NCBI GenBank assembly: GCA_003164715.1
Contig: PLTZ01000078.1
Location: 1 to 64,000 of the forward strand
DNA length: 64,000 bases
Direction of reading: 5' to 3'
DNA from: Opitutaceae bacterium
GTDB taxonomy: Bacteria > Verrucomicrobiota > Verrucomicrobiia > Opitutales > Opitutaceae
The notes beneath the pieces were generated by a model. It did not search any database. It was not told the origin of the DNA and saw only the letters and a program-made list of their open reading frames with translations. Each line of letters starts with the position of its first letter. The first letter of the stretch is position 1. The position numbers were made by a program, and so were the translations under genes. This document shows positions 43,050 through 50,133 of the stretch, in pieces.

Positions 43050-43211
43050 GGCGTGGCGCGATTGAGGCGAAAAGCCCCCCGTCCGGCGAGGCCCAACCGC
43101 CAGCGATGGGCCCTGCCTGGTTGCGGGTTGAGGAAGTGCGGCGAACGGCCCTGCGCCCCGCGTCCGCGCTATGACACGATTCCCCTTGGAGGGACTTGTA
43201 ATACACCGTCT

Positions 43212-43217
43212 TATTAT
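43212..43217 (+). promoter_or_regulatory. possible -10 element for the sulfate-assimilation operon
   Basis: TATTAT lies 22 bases before the leader-peptide start in the only AT-rich part of the 190-base gap 43050-43239. A matching -35 at normal spacing is not obvious (TTGGAG at 43186-43191 is 20 bases away), so this is tentative. The rest of the gap shows no gene. Confidence 0.3.
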
Positions 43218-43239
43218 GCACATTAACCCTCCGCTCTTG

Positions 43240-43311
43240 ATGAAACTGGCCTACGCCATGGCAAAAGCAGCCGACGCACCCTGCGTTTGTGATTGCTGCT
43301 GCCCATTTTAG
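43240..43311 (+). CDS. Cys-rich leader peptide of the sulfate-assimilation operon
   Basis: A 23-codon reading frame ends in CVCDCCCPF, with five cysteines in residues 15-21, including three TGC codons in a row. Its TAG stop is separated from the cysH ATG by only three bases (ATA), and cysH has no visible Shine-Dalgarno sequence, so the two are probably translationally coupled. Within the frame a perfect hairpin ACGCA-CCC-TGCGT (43274-43286) lies just before the cysteine codons. The placement in front of a cysteine-producing pathway fits a leader whose ribosomes slow when Cys-tRNA is scarce. Poly-Cys upstream frames with such a role are known in mycobacteria; in this lineage I infer it. A second in-frame ATG is at 43258. 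Confidence 0.72.
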   Translation: MKLAYAMAKAADAPCVCDCCCPF

Positions 43312-43314
43312 ATA

Positions 43315-44037
43315 ATGCCGACTGCGGAAATCCTCTCTGCCGCGGTTGATCCAGCCGCGGTGGACCGGAGGCTATCCGGGCTGCCGGCCGGCGAACGAAT
43401 CGCCTGGGCCTTCGCACAGTTCGGGGACGCGCTCGTCCTCAGCACGAGCTTCGGGGCCCAGGCCGCCGTGATGCTCCACCTGGCGACGCGGATCGCTCCG
43501 AACATACCGGTCGTGTTCGTCGACACCGGCTACCTCTTCCCGGAGACCTACGCCTTCGCCGACCAGCTCACCGCGAGACTGAAGATCAATCTCAAGGTGT
43601 ACCGGGCGGTCGAGTCGCCGGCCTGGATCGAGGCCCGCCACGGGAGGCTCTGGGAGAAGGGGGCGGAGGGCCTGTCCGCCTACAACCAGATCACGAAGGT
43701 TGAGCCGATGCAGCGGGCGCTTTCCGAGCTCGGGGCGCGCGCGTGGCTCGCCGGGTTGAGGCGGGTGCAGTCGAGCACGCGCGAGCACCTCCCCGTCGCC
43801 GCCAGCCAGGACGGGCGCACCAAGCTCCATCCGATCGTGGACTGGACGGACCGCGATGTGCACCGGTACCTGACCGAAAACGACCTGCCCTATCACCCGC
43901 TCTGGGAGAAGGGCTACGTCTCGATCGGCGACATCCACACGACCCGGCCGCTCACGGCGGAGATGACGCCCGAAGAGACCCGCTTCTTCGGCATCAGGCG
44001 TGAATGCGGGCTACACGACCCCGCCGCGAACATCTGA
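43315..44037 (+). CDS. cysH: phosphoadenylyl-sulfate reductase
   Basis: CysH reduces PAPS to sulfite with electrons from thioredoxin. The 240-residue protein has the adenine nucleotide alpha-hydrolase fold: LSTSFGAQAAVMLHL (about 43-57), FVDTGYLFPETYAF and LHPIVDWTDRDV, and the catalytic Cys231 in RRECGLHDP near the C-terminus. The two Cys pairs that bind the 4Fe-4S cluster in APS reductases are missing, so PAPS is the expected substrate. That agrees with the APS kinase domain in cysNC downstream. It follows the Cys-rich leader after three bases. Confidence 0.93.
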   Translation: MPTAEILSAAVDPAAVDRRLSGLPAGERIAWAFAQFGDALVLSTSFGAQAAVMLHLATRIAPNIPVVFVDTGYLFPETYAFADQLTARLKINLKVYRAVESPAWIEARHGRLWEKGAEGLSAYNQITKVEPMQRALSELGARAWLAGLRRVQSSTREHLPVAASQDGRTKLHPIVDWTDRDVHRYLTENDLPYHPLWEKGYVSIGDIHTTRPLTAEMTPEETRFFGIRRECGLHDPAANI

Positions 44038-44050
44038 AGAGGCCTCCGCG

Positions 44051-44854
44051 ATGACCCACCTAGACGAACTCGAGTCCCAGAGCATCTACCTCATGCGCGA
44101 GGCCTACCACGCCTTCAAGAAGCCCGCGATGCTCTGGTCCATGGGCAAGGACTCGAACGTGCTCCTGTGGCTCGCGAAGAAGGCGTTCTGCGGCCACATC
44201 CCGCTGCCGGTCGTCCACATCGACACGACGTACGAGTTCCCCGAGATGCTCGAATTCCGCGCATGGGCGCAGAAGCATTACGGCTTCGAACTCACGGTCT
44301 GGACCAACTTCGAGGCGCGCGCGCGCGGGATAGGCTACGAGACGACGGACCCGGTCACGGTGACCCACGAGTTGAAGACGGTGGCGCTCCAGCAGTGCCT
44401 GGCCGCCAACGGCTATGACGCGCTCATCACGGGCATAAGGCGCGACGAGGACTCGACCCGCGCCAAGGAGCGCTACTTCTCGCCGCGCAACGCGGAGTTC
44501 GAGTGGGACTACAAGGACCAGCCGCCCGAGTTCTGGAACCACTTCACGACCGAGTCGGGCCCGGGCGAGCACGTGCGCGTGCAGCCTCTCCTCGACTGGA
44601 CCGAGATCGACATCTGGCGCTACCTCGACCGCGAGAAGGTGCCGCTGCCGGGAATGTACTTCTCGCGCAACGGGCAGCGCTACCGCTCGCTCGGGTGCAT
44701 GCCGATCTCGAAGCCCGTCAAGAGCGACGCCAGGACGATCGACGCCATCATCGAGGAGCTGAAGGTGACGAAGGTGTCCGAGCGCGCCGGACGCGCGCAG
44801 GACCACCACGAGCGCAACGCCATGCAGAAGCTCCGGGCCAAGGGCTTCATGTGA
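44051..44854 (+). CDS. cysD: sulfate adenylyltransferase subunit 2
   Basis: CysD is the ATP-pyrophosphatase subunit that makes adenylyl sulfate from ATP and sulfate, driven by GTP hydrolysis in CysN. The 267 residues have the PP-loop SMGKDSNVLLWL (30-41), HIDTTYEFPEM, GIRRDEDSTRAKER and the C-terminal H-x-E-R-N-A-M-Q-K-L-R-A-K-G-F. The ATG at 44051 aligns with other CysD proteins; an upstream in-frame start at 44000 lies inside cysH. It ends adjacent to cysNC with a GTGA overlap possible. Confidence 0.95.
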   Translation: MTHLDELESQSIYLMREAYHAFKKPAMLWSMGKDSNVLLWLAKKAFCGHIPLPVVHIDTTYEFPEMLEFRAWAQKHYGFELTVWTNFEARARGIGYETTDPVTVTHELKTVALQQCLAANGYDALITGIRRDEDSTRAKERYFSPRNAEFEWDYKDQPPEFWNHFTTESGPGEHVRVQPLLDWTEIDIWRYLDREKVPLPGMYFSRNGQRYRSLGCMPISKPVKSDARTIDAIIEELKVTKVSERAGRAQDHHERNAMQKLRAKGFM

Positions 44855-44862
44855 CTTCAAGG

Positions 44863-46812
44863 ATGAACGCACCTCCGGACACCGCCCCCACGCCCAAGGC
44901 CGCAGCACCCGGGGCGCCCGCCGCCCCCGCAGCCCGGCCGTCGCAGTCGGACCACCTCCAGCTGGTCGTCGTGGGCCACGTCGACCACGGGAAGTCGACG
45001 CTCATCGGCAGGCTTCTCTTCGACACCCATTCCGTGCCCGACGGGAAGGCGGAGCGGATCGAGGCCGCCTGCAAGGCCGAGGGGATGGAGTTCGAGTACG
45101 CGTTCCTCCTGGACGCGCTCCTCGAGGAGCAGGCGCAGAACATCACGATGGACACGACCCGGGTGCCCTTCCGCACCGAGCGCCGACCGTTCACGATCAT
45201 CGACGCCCCAGGCCACAAGGAATTCCTGAAGAACATGATCACCGGGGCCGCGAGCGCCGACGCCGCGGTGCTGCTCGTCGACGCGCAGGAGGGGCTGCGC
45301 GAGCAGACCCGCCGGCACTGCTTCCTGCTCTCGCTGCTCGGGCTGCGGCAGATCGTCGTGGCCGTCAATAAGATGGACCTGGTCGACTACCGCCCGGACG
45401 TCTTCGACGCGATCCGCACCGAGCTCTCCGAGTTCCTCGCCAAGCTGGGCATCGAGCCGGCGCACTTCATCCCGATTTCGGCCAAGCACGGCGAGGGGCT
45501 GCTCCGGGGCAGCGGCCGGATGGCCTGGTACCGCGGGCCGACGCTGCTCGACGTCCTCGAGAGGTTCCGGGCCAATCCCCCGGCCTCGGGAGGACCGCTG
45601 CGGCTTTCCGTCCAAGACGTCTACCGCTTCGACTCCCGCCGGATCATCGCCGGGCTCATCGAGTCAGGCAGCGTCTCGGTCGGGGACGCGATCGAGTTCG
45701 TGCCCGGCGGCAAGCGAAGCCGGGTCAGGTCGATCGAGACCTGGCCCCAGTCGGACCCGCCCCGGGCCGGCCCCGTCGGCTCCGGCAGCGAGGTTGCGCT
45801 CACGCTCGAGGACGAGCTGTTCGTCGAGCGCGGCCAGATCGGCGCCCCGCTCGGCGACAAGCCCTATGAGGCCCGCACGTTCACGGCGCGGGTCTTCTGG
45901 ATACACGACACGCCGCTGCGTTCGGGGGAGTTGATCCCGCTCAAGCTCGGGACGCAGCAGGCCGAGGCCCGCGTGCTCGGCATCCAGCGCACGCTGGACG
46001 CCGTGACGCTCGAGAGCGGCACCGGCACGACGGGCGAGGTCAAGGTGCATGAGGTGGCGGAGATCCGCCTTCGCGTCCGCAAGCCGATCGCCTTCGACGT
46101 CGGCGGAAAGGTGCCGGCGCTCGGCCGCTTCGTCCTGATGCGGGGCCGCCGGATCGGCGGGGGCGGCGTCATTGACTCCGTTGTCGACGAGCCGACGGCC
46201 ACGCTGGGCAAGGGCCCCGTGAGCCGCGCCGCCATCCTCGGGCACCGGGGCTGCATCATCTGGATGACGGGGCTCTCGGGCTCCGGGAAGTCGACGCTCG
46301 CCCAGGCCCTGGAGCAGCGCCTCCTGACTTCGGGCATCCTGTCCGCCGTCCTGGACGGCGACGTGCTGCGCACGGGGCTCAGCCGCAACCTCGGCTTCAC
46401 GCCGGATGACCGCAGCGAGAACCTTCGCCGGGCGACCGAGCTGGCGATCCACCTCGCCGACGCCGGCGTCGTGGTCATCGCGGCGCTCATCTCGCCGTAC
46501 CGCCTGGACCGGGCCATGGCCGCCGAGCGGGCCAAGGAGAAGGGAATCCCGTTCGCCGAGATCTACATCAACGCCCCCCTCGCCGAGTGCGAGCGGCGCG
46601 ACCCAAAGCAGCTCTACAGGAAGGCGCGCGCCGGCCAGATCCTGCAGTTCACCGGGATCGATTCCCCCTACGAGGCCCCGCTTGCTCCCGACCTCGAGCT
46701 GAGGACGGACCGGGAATCCGTGGGCGATTCGATCGAAAAGCTGACGCAGGCGGCGCTGAGCCTCGCCCGGCCCCAGGAGCAGGCCCTGGACGGAGCCGGT
46801 GCCGACATATGA
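44863..46812 (+). CDS. cysNC: bifunctional sulfate adenylyltransferase subunit 1/adenylylsulfate kinase
   Basis: The 649-residue protein is a fusion: an EF-Tu-like GTPase (CysN) with G1 GHVDHGKST (38-46), DAPGH and NKMD followed by two beta-barrel domains, then an APS kinase (CysC) from about residue 460 with P-loop GLSGSGKST (470-478), DGDVLRTGLSRNLGF and the ISPYR motif containing the phospho-acceptor Ser. It activates sulfate to APS and then PAPS. A 25-residue Ala/Pro-rich N-terminal extension precedes the GTPase. Start: ATG at 44863, with GTG at 44851 overlapping the cysD stop as an alternative. Its end overlaps the methyltransferase gene by 4 bases. Confidence 0.94.
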   Translation: MNAPPDTAPTPKAAAPGAPAAPAARPSQSDHLQLVVVGHVDHGKSTLIGRLLFDTHSVPDGKAERIEAACKAEGMEFEYAFLLDALLEEQAQNITMDTTRVPFRTERRPFTIIDAPGHKEFLKNMITGAASADAAVLLVDAQEGLREQTRRHCFLLSLLGLRQIVVAVNKMDLVDYRPDVFDAIRTELSEFLAKLGIEPAHFIPISAKHGEGLLRGSGRMAWYRGPTLLDVLERFRANPPASGGPLRLSVQDVYRFDSRRIIAGLIESGSVSVGDAIEFVPGGKRSRVRSIETWPQSDPPRAGPVGSGSEVALTLEDELFVERGQIGAPLGDKPYEARTFTARVFWIHDTPLRSGELIPLKLGTQQAEARVLGIQRTLDAVTLESGTGTTGEVKVHEVAEIRLRVRKPIAFDVGGKVPALGRFVLMRGRRIGGGGVIDSVVDEPTATLGKGPVSRAAILGHRGCIIWMTGLSGSGKSTLAQALEQRLLTSGILSAVLDGDVLRTGLSRNLGFTPDDRSENLRRATELAIHLADAGVVVIAALISPYRLDRAMAAERAKEKGIPFAEIYINAPLAECERRDPKQLYRKARAGQILQFTGIDSPYEAPLAPDLELRTDRESVGDSIEKLTQAALSLARPQEQALDGAGADI

Positions 46813-47582
46813 ACCCCGGAACGGTATATCTGGTCGGCGCGGGGCCCGGGGACCCGGAGCTCATCACGCTCAAGGCGCGCCGCGTCCTCGCCGAGGCCGA
46901 CGCCGTGGTGTACGACCACCTGGTCGACGCGGCGCTCCTCGAACTCGCGCCGCCGGGATGCGAGCGTATCTTCGCCGGCAAGAAGGGCGGCCAGGTCTGC
47001 CGGCCCCAGGACGAGATCGACGGGATGCTCGTGCGGCTGGCCCTCGAGGGGAAGAGCGTCGTCCGCCTGAAGGGCGGGGACCCCTTCATCTTCGGACGGG
47101 GCGGCGAGGAGGCGTCCGCGCTTGCGGCCGCGGGAATCCCCTTTGAGATCGTGCCCGGGGTCACCGCGGCGCTCGCCGCGGCCGCCTACGCGGGCATCCC
47201 CCTCACCCACCGGCTGCACAGCTCCGCCGTCGTGTTCCTGACCGGCCACGAGGACCCGGCCAAGGCGGACGCGACAGTGCATTGGGAGGACTACGCCCGA
47301 CTGAAGGCCACGCTCTGCGTCTACATGGGCGTAAGGAAACTGCCGGTGATCGCCCGCCGCCTCGAGGCCGGCGGCATGGCGCCGTCGACCCCGGCTGCGA
47401 TCGTGGAGTCGGCCACCACCGAGGCCCACCGGAGGATCCTCGGGACCCTGGGGACGATAGCCAATCTCGCCGCCCGCGAGGACGTCCAGGCGCCCGCGCT
47501 GCTCATCATCGGCGAGGTCGCGGCCTTCGCCGAGTCGCTCTCCTGGTTCGAAAACGCAGCGCGCCTCTCCGCGGCACGATGA
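46809..47582 (+). CDS. cobA: uroporphyrinogen-III C-methyltransferase
   Basis: SUMT methylates uroporphyrinogen III at C2 and C7 to precorrin-2, the branch point to siroheme and cobalamin. The 257-residue single-domain enzyme has VYLVGAGPGDPELITLKA (5-22), VVYDHLVD, LKGGDPFIFGRGGEEA, VPGVTAALAAAAYAGIPLTHR and a C-terminal LLIIGEV. The ATG at 46809 overlaps the cysNC stop. In this operon its product serves the siroheme of the sulfite reductase encoded two genes downstream. There is no fused dehydrogenase/chelatase (CysG) domain. Confidence 0.94.
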   Translation: MNPGTVYLVGAGPGDPELITLKARRVLAEADAVVYDHLVDAALLELAPPGCERIFAGKKGGQVCRPQDEIDGMLVRLALEGKSVVRLKGGDPFIFGRGGEEASALAAAGIPFEIVPGVTAALAAAAYAGIPLTHRLHSSAVVFLTGHEDPAKADATVHWEDYARLKATLCVYMGVRKLPVIARRLEAGGMAPSTPAAIVESATTEAHRRILGTLGTIANLAAREDVQAPALLIIGEVAAFAESLSWFENAARLSAAR

Positions 47583-48400
47583 AGACCGCCCTCATCGACA
47601 ACGGATCGCTCGAGCCCGCGGCCCACGCCTGCCTGCGGGCGGCGGCGGCGGCCATCGGCGCGCGGGCGGGAACCCGCGTCGACGCGGTCTCGTGGAGGCA
47701 CAGCGGCCGCATTCCGGCCGTCGCACTGGAAGGAGGCCCGGCATGGACGCTCGCGCGCTGGATCCGCGCCCGGGTGGCGGCGGGAGAGCGCGAGTACCTT
47801 TTCATCCCGTTCTTCATCAGCCCGCAGGGCACGATCGGCAGCTCGATTCGCCGGGATCTTGACCGCCTGCGGGAGACCGAGGGGGGCTTCGACTATGCGT
47901 TCACGGAGGGGCTCCCCACGGACTCGGCCCTGCCGGCGATCGTCGCAGACCGCATCCGGGAGTCGGCGTCGCGCCTCGGGCTACCGAGGCCCCCGGTCGT
48001 CGTGGTCGACCACGGCGGGCCGTCGCCCGCCTCCGCCGAGGTACGCAACCAGGTCGCGGACCGCGTCCGCGCCGAGCTTGGCGGCGCGATCGGCCCCCTC
48101 CTCGCGACCTCGATGGAATCCCCGGACGGCCCGGACTTCGCCTTCAACCGCCCGCTCCTCTGCGAGGCGCTCGCGCGGCCCGGGTTCGACTCGGGCGACG
48201 TCTTGATCGCCCCGCTCTTCCTCTCGCCCGGCCGGCACGCGGGGCCCGGGGGCGACCTCGTGCGGATCGCCCGCGGGGCCGAGGTGCGCGCGCCGCGGCT
48301 TCGCTGCCATTTCACCGATCTAGTGGGGTCGCACCCCCTCGCCCTTGAGACCCTCGCTGGCTCCCTTTCCCGGGTGCTGCGCGTCGCCACCCAGCCATGA
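47579..48400 (+). CDS. CbiX/SirB-like sirohydrochlorin chelatase
   Basis: The 273-residue protein contains two related CbiX-type halves. The N-terminal half begins TALIDNGSLEPAAHA and reads FIPFFISPQGTIG further on. The C-terminal half begins VVVDHGGPSPASAEV (the H-G-x-x-x-P/S metal-site loop) and has LIAPLFLSPGRHAGPGGDL. Such enzymes insert Fe or Co into sirohydrochlorin. The first half has Asn where the second has His, so perhaps only one half is catalytic. ATGA overlaps on both sides embed it between the methyltransferase and the sulfite reductase, which points to iron insertion for siroheme. No separate precorrin-2 dehydrogenase gene is seen nearby. Confidence 0.82.
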   Translation: MKTALIDNGSLEPAAHACLRAAAAAIGARAGTRVDAVSWRHSGRIPAVALEGGPAWTLARWIRARVAAGEREYLFIPFFISPQGTIGSSIRRDLDRLRETEGGFDYAFTEGLPTDSALPAIVADRIRESASRLGLPRPPVVVVDHGGPSPASAEVRNQVADRVRAELGGAIGPLLATSMESPDGPDFAFNRPLLCEALARPGFDSGDVLIAPLFLSPGRHAGPGGDLVRIARGAEVRAPRLRCHFTDLVGSHPLALETLAGSLSRVLRVATQP

Positions 48401-50133
48401 GCAACGAACCCCAGACCGCGTCGCCGCCGCTCCACAAGAACGAGCAGATCAAGGCTGAGAGCCGTTTCCTGAGGGGCCACATCCGCGAGGACCTCGAGGA
48501 CCCGTCGTCCGGGACTATTTCTGAAGACAGCGCCCAGCTCACCAAGTTTCACGGGGTCTATCCGCAGGACGACCGCGACCAGAGGGTCCAGCGGCGCCGG
48601 GAGGGCAAGGATAAGGCCTACATCTTCATGGCGAGGGTGCGCGTGCCCGGAGGAGTCTGCACGCCCCAGCAGTGGCTCGCGATGGATGCGGTCTCGGACG
48701 CTTACGGGAACGGGACGCTCAAGATCACGAACCGCCAGTCCTTCCAGCTCCACGGGGTCATCAAGAGCAACCTGCGCGCGGCGATCCGCGAGGTGAACCG
48801 CGCCCTCCTCGACACGCTCGCCGCGTGCGGCGACGTGAACCGCAACGTGATGTGCAACCCCAACCCGCACCTCTCCGCGCTCCACGCCGAGACGCTCGGG
48901 ATCGCAAGGGCCGTCGCGGAGCGCCTGCTGCCGCGGACAAGGGCCTACCACGAGCTCTGGATCGAGGACACCCTTGTCGCCGGGGGCGAGCCCCCCGAGG
49001 ACGAGGAGCCCCTGTACGGCAGGACGTACCTTCCGAGGAAGTTCAAGATCGTGTTCGCCGTCCCGCCGAGCAACGACGTGGATGTGTTCGCCCACGACCT
49101 CGGCTTCATCGCGATCACGGACGAGGCGGGCCGGCTGGCCGGCTTCGACGTGACGGTCGGGGGCGGCATGGGAATGACGCACGGCCAGGCCGAGACCTAC
49201 CCCAGGCTGGCGGACGTGCTCGGGTTCTGCCGCCCCGACCAGGTGGTCGACGTCGCCGAGAAAATCGTGACGGTGCAGCGCGACTTCGGCGACCGGACCG
49301 ACCGCAAGCACGCGCGCTTCAAGTACACGGTTGCGGACCGCGGGCTCGCCTGGATCCGCGCCGAGGTTGAGCGGCGGCTCGGATGGGAGCTCGGCTCGCC
49401 CCGGCGCTTCGAGTTCACCGGCACCGGCGACCGCTACGGCTGGACGGAGGGCCCGAACGGCGACGCCCATTTCACGCTCTTCATCGAGAACGGCCGCGTG
49501 AAGGGGCCTACAAAGACGGCGCTCCGGGAAATCGCGAAGGTCCATAAGGGCGATTTCCGGTTGACGCCGAACCAGCACCTCATGATCGCGAGCGTCGCCA
49601 CGGCGGACAGGCCGCGGATCGGCGCCCTGTTGCGGGAGCACGTCCTCGACGGCGCGCACCGCGCCTCGGGGCTCCGGCTGAACGCCATGGCCTGCGTCGC
49701 CCTGCCCACGTGCGGGCTCGCCCTGGCCGAGAGCGAGCGCTACCTGCCGGACCTTGTGACGGAGCTCGAGGCGGAGGTCGAGGCGGCGGGACTTCGCGAC
49801 GACGCGATTGTCATCCGGATGACGGGCTGCCCCAACGGATGCGGACGGCCCTTCCTCGCCGAGATCGGCTTCGTCGGCAAGGCGCCGGGAAAATACAACG
49901 TCTACCTCGGCGCCGCCTTCAACGGGACCCGGATGAACGCCCTCTACAAGCCCTCGGTTGCCGCCGCAGAGATCGTGCCGCTTGTGCGACCGATGCTCAG
50001 GCGCTACGCCATGGAGCGGATCCCCGGCGAGCGGTTCGGGGACTTCGCGATCCGCATGGGCTGGGTGACCCCCACCGGGGCGCCCGCGGACTTCCACGCC
50101 CAGGTGGCGATAAGCGACACGGCGGATCTTTGA
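48397..50133 (+). CDS. cysI: sulfite reductase hemoprotein (beta) subunit
   Basis: The enzyme reduces sulfite to sulfide with six electrons at a siroheme coupled to a 4Fe-4S cluster. The 578-residue protein has two ferredoxin-like half-domains and the cluster ligands Cys433 and Cys439 (ACVALPTCG) and Cys478 and Cys482 (GCPNGCG); the last bridges to siroheme. LKITNRQSFQLHG and the N-x-N-R-N-V-M-type segment (DVNRNVMCNPNP) are sulfite reductase features. No flavoprotein subunit CysJ is in the operon, so the donor may be ferredoxin or a CysJ elsewhere. It closes the operon and is followed by a strong terminator. Confidence 0.93.
   Translation: MSNEPQTASPPLHKNEQIKAESRFLRGHIREDLEDPSSGTISEDSAQLTKFHGVYPQDDRDQRVQRRREGKDKAYIFMARVRVPGGVCTPQQWLAMDAVSDAYGNGTLKITNRQSFQLHGVIKSNLRAAIREVNRALLDTLAACGDVNRNVMCNPNPHLSALHAETLGIARAVAERLLPRTRAYHELWIEDTLVAGGEPPEDEEPLYGRTYLPRKFKIVFAVPPSNDVDVFAHDLGFIAITDEAGRLAGFDVTVGGGMGMTHGQAETYPRLADVLGFCRPDQVVDVAEKIVTVQRDFGDRTDRKHARFKYTVADRGLAWIRAEVERRLGWELGSPRRFEFTGTGDRYGWTEGPNGDAHFTLFIENGRVKGPTKTALREIAKVHKGDFRLTPNQHLMIASVATADRPRIGALLREHVLDGAHRASGLRLNAMACVALPTCGLALAESERYLPDLVTELEAEVEAAGLRDDAIVIRMTGCPNGCGRPFLAEIGFVGKAPGKYNVYLGAAFNGTRMNALYKPSVAAAEIVPLVRPMLRRYAMERIPGERFGDFAIRMGWVTPTGAPADFHAQVAISDTADL

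Follow-up and report, generated by a model that had tools for sequence, protein, structure and literature searches.

An open reading frame of 23 codons, with cysteine codons crowded toward its stop, lies directly before cysH in the sulfate-assimilation operon of an Opitutaceae bacterium, and its conservation as a Cys-codon leader within one CysH clade is well supported. We consider it probable that the leader peptide senses Cys-tRNA and governs the operon via translation of cysH, opening cysH when cysteine is low. The window (the whole stretch of 64,000 nucleotides analyzed here) comes from a genome of 3.79 Mb. The nearest named relatives of this genome are metagenome-assembled Opitutaceae, several of which are palsa isolates and others apparently lake isolates, judging by isolate names.

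Leaders of this kind are already known in Mycobacterium, Propionibacterium, Bifidobacterium, and Rhodobacterales. Leader peptides with runs of Cys close to the stop were predicted before the cys operons of Mycobacterium and Propionibacterium acnes (Seliverstov 2005, PMC1262725) and before cbs of Bifidobacterium longum (PMC1262725). Ribosome profiling backs the mycobacterial leaders (Shell 2015, PMC4633059), which the preliminary description had also mentioned. The mycobacterial polycysteine leaders are reported as cysteine responsive (Canestrari 2020, as cited in PMC13236596 and PMC9031893), with attenuation that depends on ribosome speed at the Cys codons. The upstream frame of cysS in Rhodobacterales combines two Cys codons with a terminator (PMC8632094). 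We found no report in the open-access papers searched of a Cys-codon leader in Verrucomicrobiota; thus, the kind of leader is known, and what is new is the lineage, together with a candidate element inside the cysH coding sequence.

The leader runs from ATG 43240 to TAG 43311 on the + strand, with a gap of 3 nt between its stop and the cysH ATG (43315). Cysteine occupies residues 15, 17, 19, 20, and 21 of the peptide, five of seven consecutive positions, and the Cys codons lie ∼13 to 33 nt upstream of the cysH AUG. The frame, its cysteine count, and its distance from cysH are exactly as first described, and, as had also been remarked, no Shine-Dalgarno sequence is visible before cysH. None is visible upstream of the leader either, which is compatible with leaderless or near-leaderless transcription. 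Only 5 of 401,742 stop-free seven-codon windows held at least five Cys codons in a set of related sequence that itself contains the leaders. A perfect hairpin (ACGCA-CCC-TGCGT, 43274 to 43286) had been placed before the Cys codons; the hairpin is real, but it encloses the first of them, and we rejected it as a conserved structure because it is not clearly retained among relatives. The features of the leader region are as follows:

43240 to 43311, + strand: leader ORF, encoding MKLAYAMAKAADAPCVCDCCCPF and then the stop; frame and position are kept in 14 of 14 clade loci, with pN/pS as further evidence.
43282 to 43302, + strand: Cys codon cluster CVCDCCC, codons 15 to 21, read from the sequence; Cys codons are near the stop in all 14 leaders.
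43171 to 43204, + strand: DNA blocks TGACAC (43172 to 43177) and CTTGTNA (43195 to 43201), invariant and at fixed spacing in the eight gap-free loci of the genus.

A coding signal that may point to translation of the frame comes from substitution ratios, taken with no significance test from eight gap-free sequences of the genus. From 43240 onward, pN/pS was 0.66 in the leader frame versus 0.88 and 0.89 in the other frames, and it was 0.53 in the first ten codons. The preceding 69 nt, which are open back to ATG 43171 and open in most relatives, showed no coding signal by this measure (0.83 versus 0.96 and 0.87). These ratios favor 43240 as the probable start. A longer leader beginning at ATG 43171 or 43216 was rejected, both because this upstream coding signal is lacking and because some relatives have a break or a shift in the reading frame there. 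The invariant TGACAC and CTTGTNA blocks look like a promoter or operator.

The leader precedes a cysH-first operon that extends ∼6.9 kb through cysI and whose genes were assigned with NCBIfam and Pfam:

43315 to 44037, + strand: cysH, phosphoadenylyl-sulfate reductase (NCBIfam).
44051 to 44854, + strand: cysD, sulfate adenylyltransferase subunit (NCBIfam).
44932 to 46812, + strand: cysNC, sulfate adenylyltransferase subunit 1/adenylylsulfate kinase, start approximate (NCBIfam).
46812 to 47582, + strand: uroporphyrinogen-III C-methyltransferase of the siroheme branch, start approximate (NCBIfam, Pfam).
47282 to 48400, + strand: CbiX-like frame, true start probably nearer 47580 (weak match to Pfam CbiX).
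48397 to 50133, + strand: cysI, sulfite reductase hemoprotein (NCBIfam).

These assignments, and those of cysH, cysD, cysNC, and cysI by NCBIfam in particular, bear out the earlier view that the operon yields sulfide for cysteine.

To locate CysH, we searched 57 relatives and subsequently 252 genomes of the family, as well as the GTDB contig collection. Within the genus of the window, 11 of 13 genomes (the window's own included) have the leader-type cysH, and the leader is present in all 11, with its stop 3 to 4 nt from cysH. Two members of the genus, G001 and G012, have no cysH and carry one or two additional cysK/cysM-like genes, which suggests that they use another sulfur source. Outside the genus there are three leader loci, of which g47, a second genus, holds two and g7 holds one (G128), with gaps of 2 to 3 nt; the full range of 2 to 4 nt includes two loci at which start positions were adjusted by 3 and 6 nt.

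All 14 loci, which belong to a single CysH clade, have a short frame with 2 to 6 Cys codons near its stop. The leader C-termini are CVCDCCCPF, SCACARCRLN, RARCCLY, PACACCPLP, RCCCPLH, CETCACCCPN, RACCRLP, RVCCLLQ, GVCVCCCPQ, CLPGFCCCPN, CAACACCCSD, DCVCCCFD, WVCCCVF, and RACCCCFD. Three of these leaders have two Cys only, adjacent each time, and SCACARCRLN has three, none adjacent. The preliminary description had pointed to homologous loci as the place where the idea could fail, through loss of the frame or its Cys codons. Neither was lost: before every cysH of the clade, the frame stands at its usual position and has no fewer than two Cys codons close to the stop. The other leader residues drift, and indels within the leader preserve the reading frame. 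In a maximum likelihood tree of CysH, the 14 leader-bearing proteins form one clade (support, 100/93), separate from other CysH of Opitutaceae. Such a topology fits a leader that arose once, within this CysH lineage, although a tree of the enzyme cannot show this by itself.

No Cys leader precedes cysH in the other genera of the family and order that we examined, and none was found at 70 other named loci, including those of Verrucomicrobiales, Ectothiorhodospira, Paraglaciecola, and Dyella; a few of the 70 have Cys-containing frames, but at unrelated positions. The proposal of a Cys-sensing leader stands as the best reading of a conserved frame and its Cys codons, but for one CysH clade only, as most Opitutales lack it. 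Within the genome, a search for tandem Cys codons followed by a stop and an ATG returned only two matches, the leader among them, and a reversed control returned more, so we rejected a genome-wide set of Cys leaders. None was seen at cysK or cysE; the cysE part of this check is weak, since cysE was viewed from its domain match rather than from the start of the gene, and a small number of loci were short. The two leaders tested had no HMM match among NCBIfam leader-peptide families. The sole match to the Rfam 15 covariance models was at chance level, outside the element, and far below the gathering score, and a known riboswitch was rejected accordingly. There is no terminator-like site within 43080 to 43480; given this and the interval of 3 nt between leader and cysH, we also rejected classical transcription attenuation.

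Conservation at the nucleotide level is instead found farther downstream, within cysH itself, where the preliminary description had missed it. Synonymous-site constraint across the 14 genes is strongest at one place:

43321 to 43362, + strand: cysH codons 3 to 16, synonymous-constraint peak, first in rank among 231 windows and without a counterpart in the control clade.

Same-codon identity there is 0.257 above expectation, compared with 0.074 in the best non-overlapping window, and the constrained bases are ACTGCGGA, CCCGCGGTTGA, and GCCGCGG. We regard this constraint as a solid observation. No peak occurs at the 5' end of 17 leaderless cysH genes, for which the best value was 0.103 near codon 168; this control is suggestive rather than strict because 2 of the 17 were read from an internal ATG and because the N-termini vary so much that few codons can be compared there.

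Unguided RNAalifold predictions for the 14 sequences pair the last Cys codons (YUGCUGC) with cysH +43 to +49 and, in a second helix, cysH +7 to +13 with +26 to +32. An alternative helix would join cysH +26 to +33 with +39 to +46. Four segments are involved:

43293 to 43299, + strand: segment 1, UUGCUGC (codons of Cys19 and Cys20), complementary to 43357 to 43363 in the RNAalifold consensus.
43321 to 43327, + strand: segment 2, ACUGCGG, predicted to pair with segment 3.
43340 to 43347, + strand: segment 3, CCGCGGUU, predicted to pair with segment 2 or segment 4.
43353 to 43363, + strand: segment 4, AGCCGCGGUGG, of which 43353 to 43360 may pair with segment 3 or 43357 to 43363 with segment 1.

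The arrangement 1:4 plus 2:3 and the arrangement 3:4 are mutually exclusive, and the Cys codons take part only in 1:4. Across the 14 sequences, pairing is retained in 94.9% of cells and drops when one side is slid; many of the predicted base pairs are invariant, however, and shuffled controls matched the observed levels of both pairing and covariation. The stability of the hairpins is ordinary compared with synonymous codon resampling. Local energies of the named helices prefer 1:4 plus 2:3 to 3:4 in 11 of 14 sequences, whereas full-length ensembles prefer the 3:4 hairpin in most sequences with the Cys codons masked or free, and masking them did not consistently open the cysH start. Because covariation does not exceed shuffles and the fold energies are ambiguous, we put forward the RNA switch as a hypothesis and only infer the direction of control. 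In several members of the genus, though not at all loci, leader codons 4 to 6 (GCCUCCG) are also complementary to CGGAGGC in cysH codons 18 to 20 (43366 to 43374), a possible long-range closing helix.

As proposed, plentiful Cys-tRNA would let the ribosome leave the leader quickly, and the cysH start, flanked by helices 1:4 and 2:3, would then initiate poorly. With Cys-tRNA scarce, the ribosome would dwell at the Cys codons and leave segment 4 free to pair with segment 3. Formation of 3:4 would then open segment 2, which adjoins the cysH AUG, and coupled ribosomes would begin cysH, such that a shortage of cysteine raises sulfide production. Besides the covariation and energy results, two further points count against such a Cys-sensing switch. 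Three leaders retain just two Cys codons, and the Cys codons are so near the AUG that initiation at cysH might be obstructed by the stalled ribosome, which may itself need to advance and reinitiate. More tentatively, and with the odds somewhat against it, the whole may be a Cys-tRNA translational switch that arose in one Verrucomicrobiota CysH lineage, with its platform inside the cysH coding sequence, Cys codons that pair with codons 15 to 17, and a lineage-specific N-terminal extension of CysH whose main role is to carry the RNA switch.

The alternative that survives best, although we think it unlikely, is that the leader only delivers ribosomes: a leaderless or near-leaderless short ORF would load ribosomes for reinitiation at cysH, and the Cys codons of that ORF would have no part in sensing cysteine. 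That cysH has no Shine-Dalgarno sequence and that the leader stops 2 to 4 nt from the ATG at all loci both speak for delivery, which nevertheless leaves unexplained why every leader has Cys codons near its stop amid drifting neighbors.

Rather less plausible is control of the opposite sign, in which cysH falls at low cysteine because stalling at the Cys codons either leaves a ribosome over the cysH start or uncouples transcription and brings on Rho termination. At ∼13 to 33 nt from the AUG, the Cys codons are within reach of a stalled ribosome, and Rho has been proposed for the terminator-less mycobacterial leaders (PMC1262725). However, a cell short of cysteine would have little physiological reason to shut down the pathway that makes it, and in the mycobacterial precedent, as described in PMC13236596 and PMC9031893, stalling frees the downstream gene from sequestration.

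We give similarly little credence to the idea that the leader acts as a nascent Cys-rich peptide responding to a metal, to sulfide, or to redox state, and not to Cys-tRNA. Copper-responsive Cys-rich leader peptides have been described, and the C-termini here contain CxC and CCC motifs; yet the leaders have anywhere from 2 to 6 Cys, variably spaced and forming no constant binding motif, as suits codon sensing, and the downstream operon yields sulfide for cysteine. Finally, a chance ORF whose conserved nucleotides are a DNA or RNA signal only would agree with the just moderately low pN/pS of 0.66 but is very improbable, since indels do not disrupt the frame, and 14 divergent loci agree in its presence, its position, and its Cys codons.

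The preferred reading, a Cys-tRNA-sensing leader, has its closest parallel in the polycysteine short ORFs of mycobacteria, which likewise have a run of Cys codons near the stop, lie directly before sulfur or cysteine genes, and lack a terminator. The leader described here differs in belonging to another phylum and preceding a cysH-first operon, in having its candidate platform within the cysH coding sequence with no Shine-Dalgarno sequence to sequester, and in being the one such leader found in its genome, compared with six mycobacterial ORFs. Leaderless transcription is a feature of the mycobacterial ORFs and is a possibility for the present leader. The uORFC-8-2 motif of cysS in Rhodobacterales (PMC8632094) is also a conserved upstream frame with tandem Cys codons able to sit in a stem, but its target is a cysteinyl-tRNA synthetase and an intrinsic terminator closes it, whereas the present leader precedes cysH and has none. 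In the LEU element before leuA of Actinobacteria (PMC1262725), a run of regulatory codons similarly base-pairs with sequence at the site where the structural gene is initiated, although through Leu codons, a pseudoknot, and a Shine-Dalgarno partner, and with no homology to this leader. Classical trp-type attenuators also carry regulatory codons in a leader peptide and form RNA pairings that exclude one another; unlike them, the present leader has neither a terminator nor a spacer to the gene. Cys-codon leaders are thereby extended beyond Actinobacteria and Alphaproteobacteria to one Verrucomicrobiota CysH clade, which suggests that they arise repeatedly where sulfate assimilation must track the supply of Cys-tRNA. 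The locus is also a compact and testable case of a regulatory RNA that may extend into the beginning of the very protein it controls.

The leader is not a simple replacement for a transcription-factor site, a notion we rejected because leader-bearing CysH and the CysH of other Opitutaceae are separate lineages. Some leaderless genera of the family have a near-perfect palindrome, TTTACTTAGGACATGTCCTAAGTA, at one place per genome just upstream of cysH (G016:C1:3998391-3998414, G028:C93:42716-42739, and G036:C106:125578-125601; loci L020, L022, and L025). It looks like a transcription-factor operator, and no match with three or fewer mismatches occurs in the nine leader-bearing genomes searched. 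With a different cysH lineage in other genera and this operator-like palindrome in some of them, sulfate assimilation appears to be controlled differently within the one family, Opitutaceae. The leader-type cysH of G128 (L033/L079; leader ending WVCCCVF) lies on a 19-kb contig, and other members of g7 have a distant cysH; its presence there reflects either horizontal transfer or a misbinned contig. At g47-type loci (L034), a palindrome-like GCAAACGCGTTTGC stands beside TATGACA upstream of the leader and is a possible operator.
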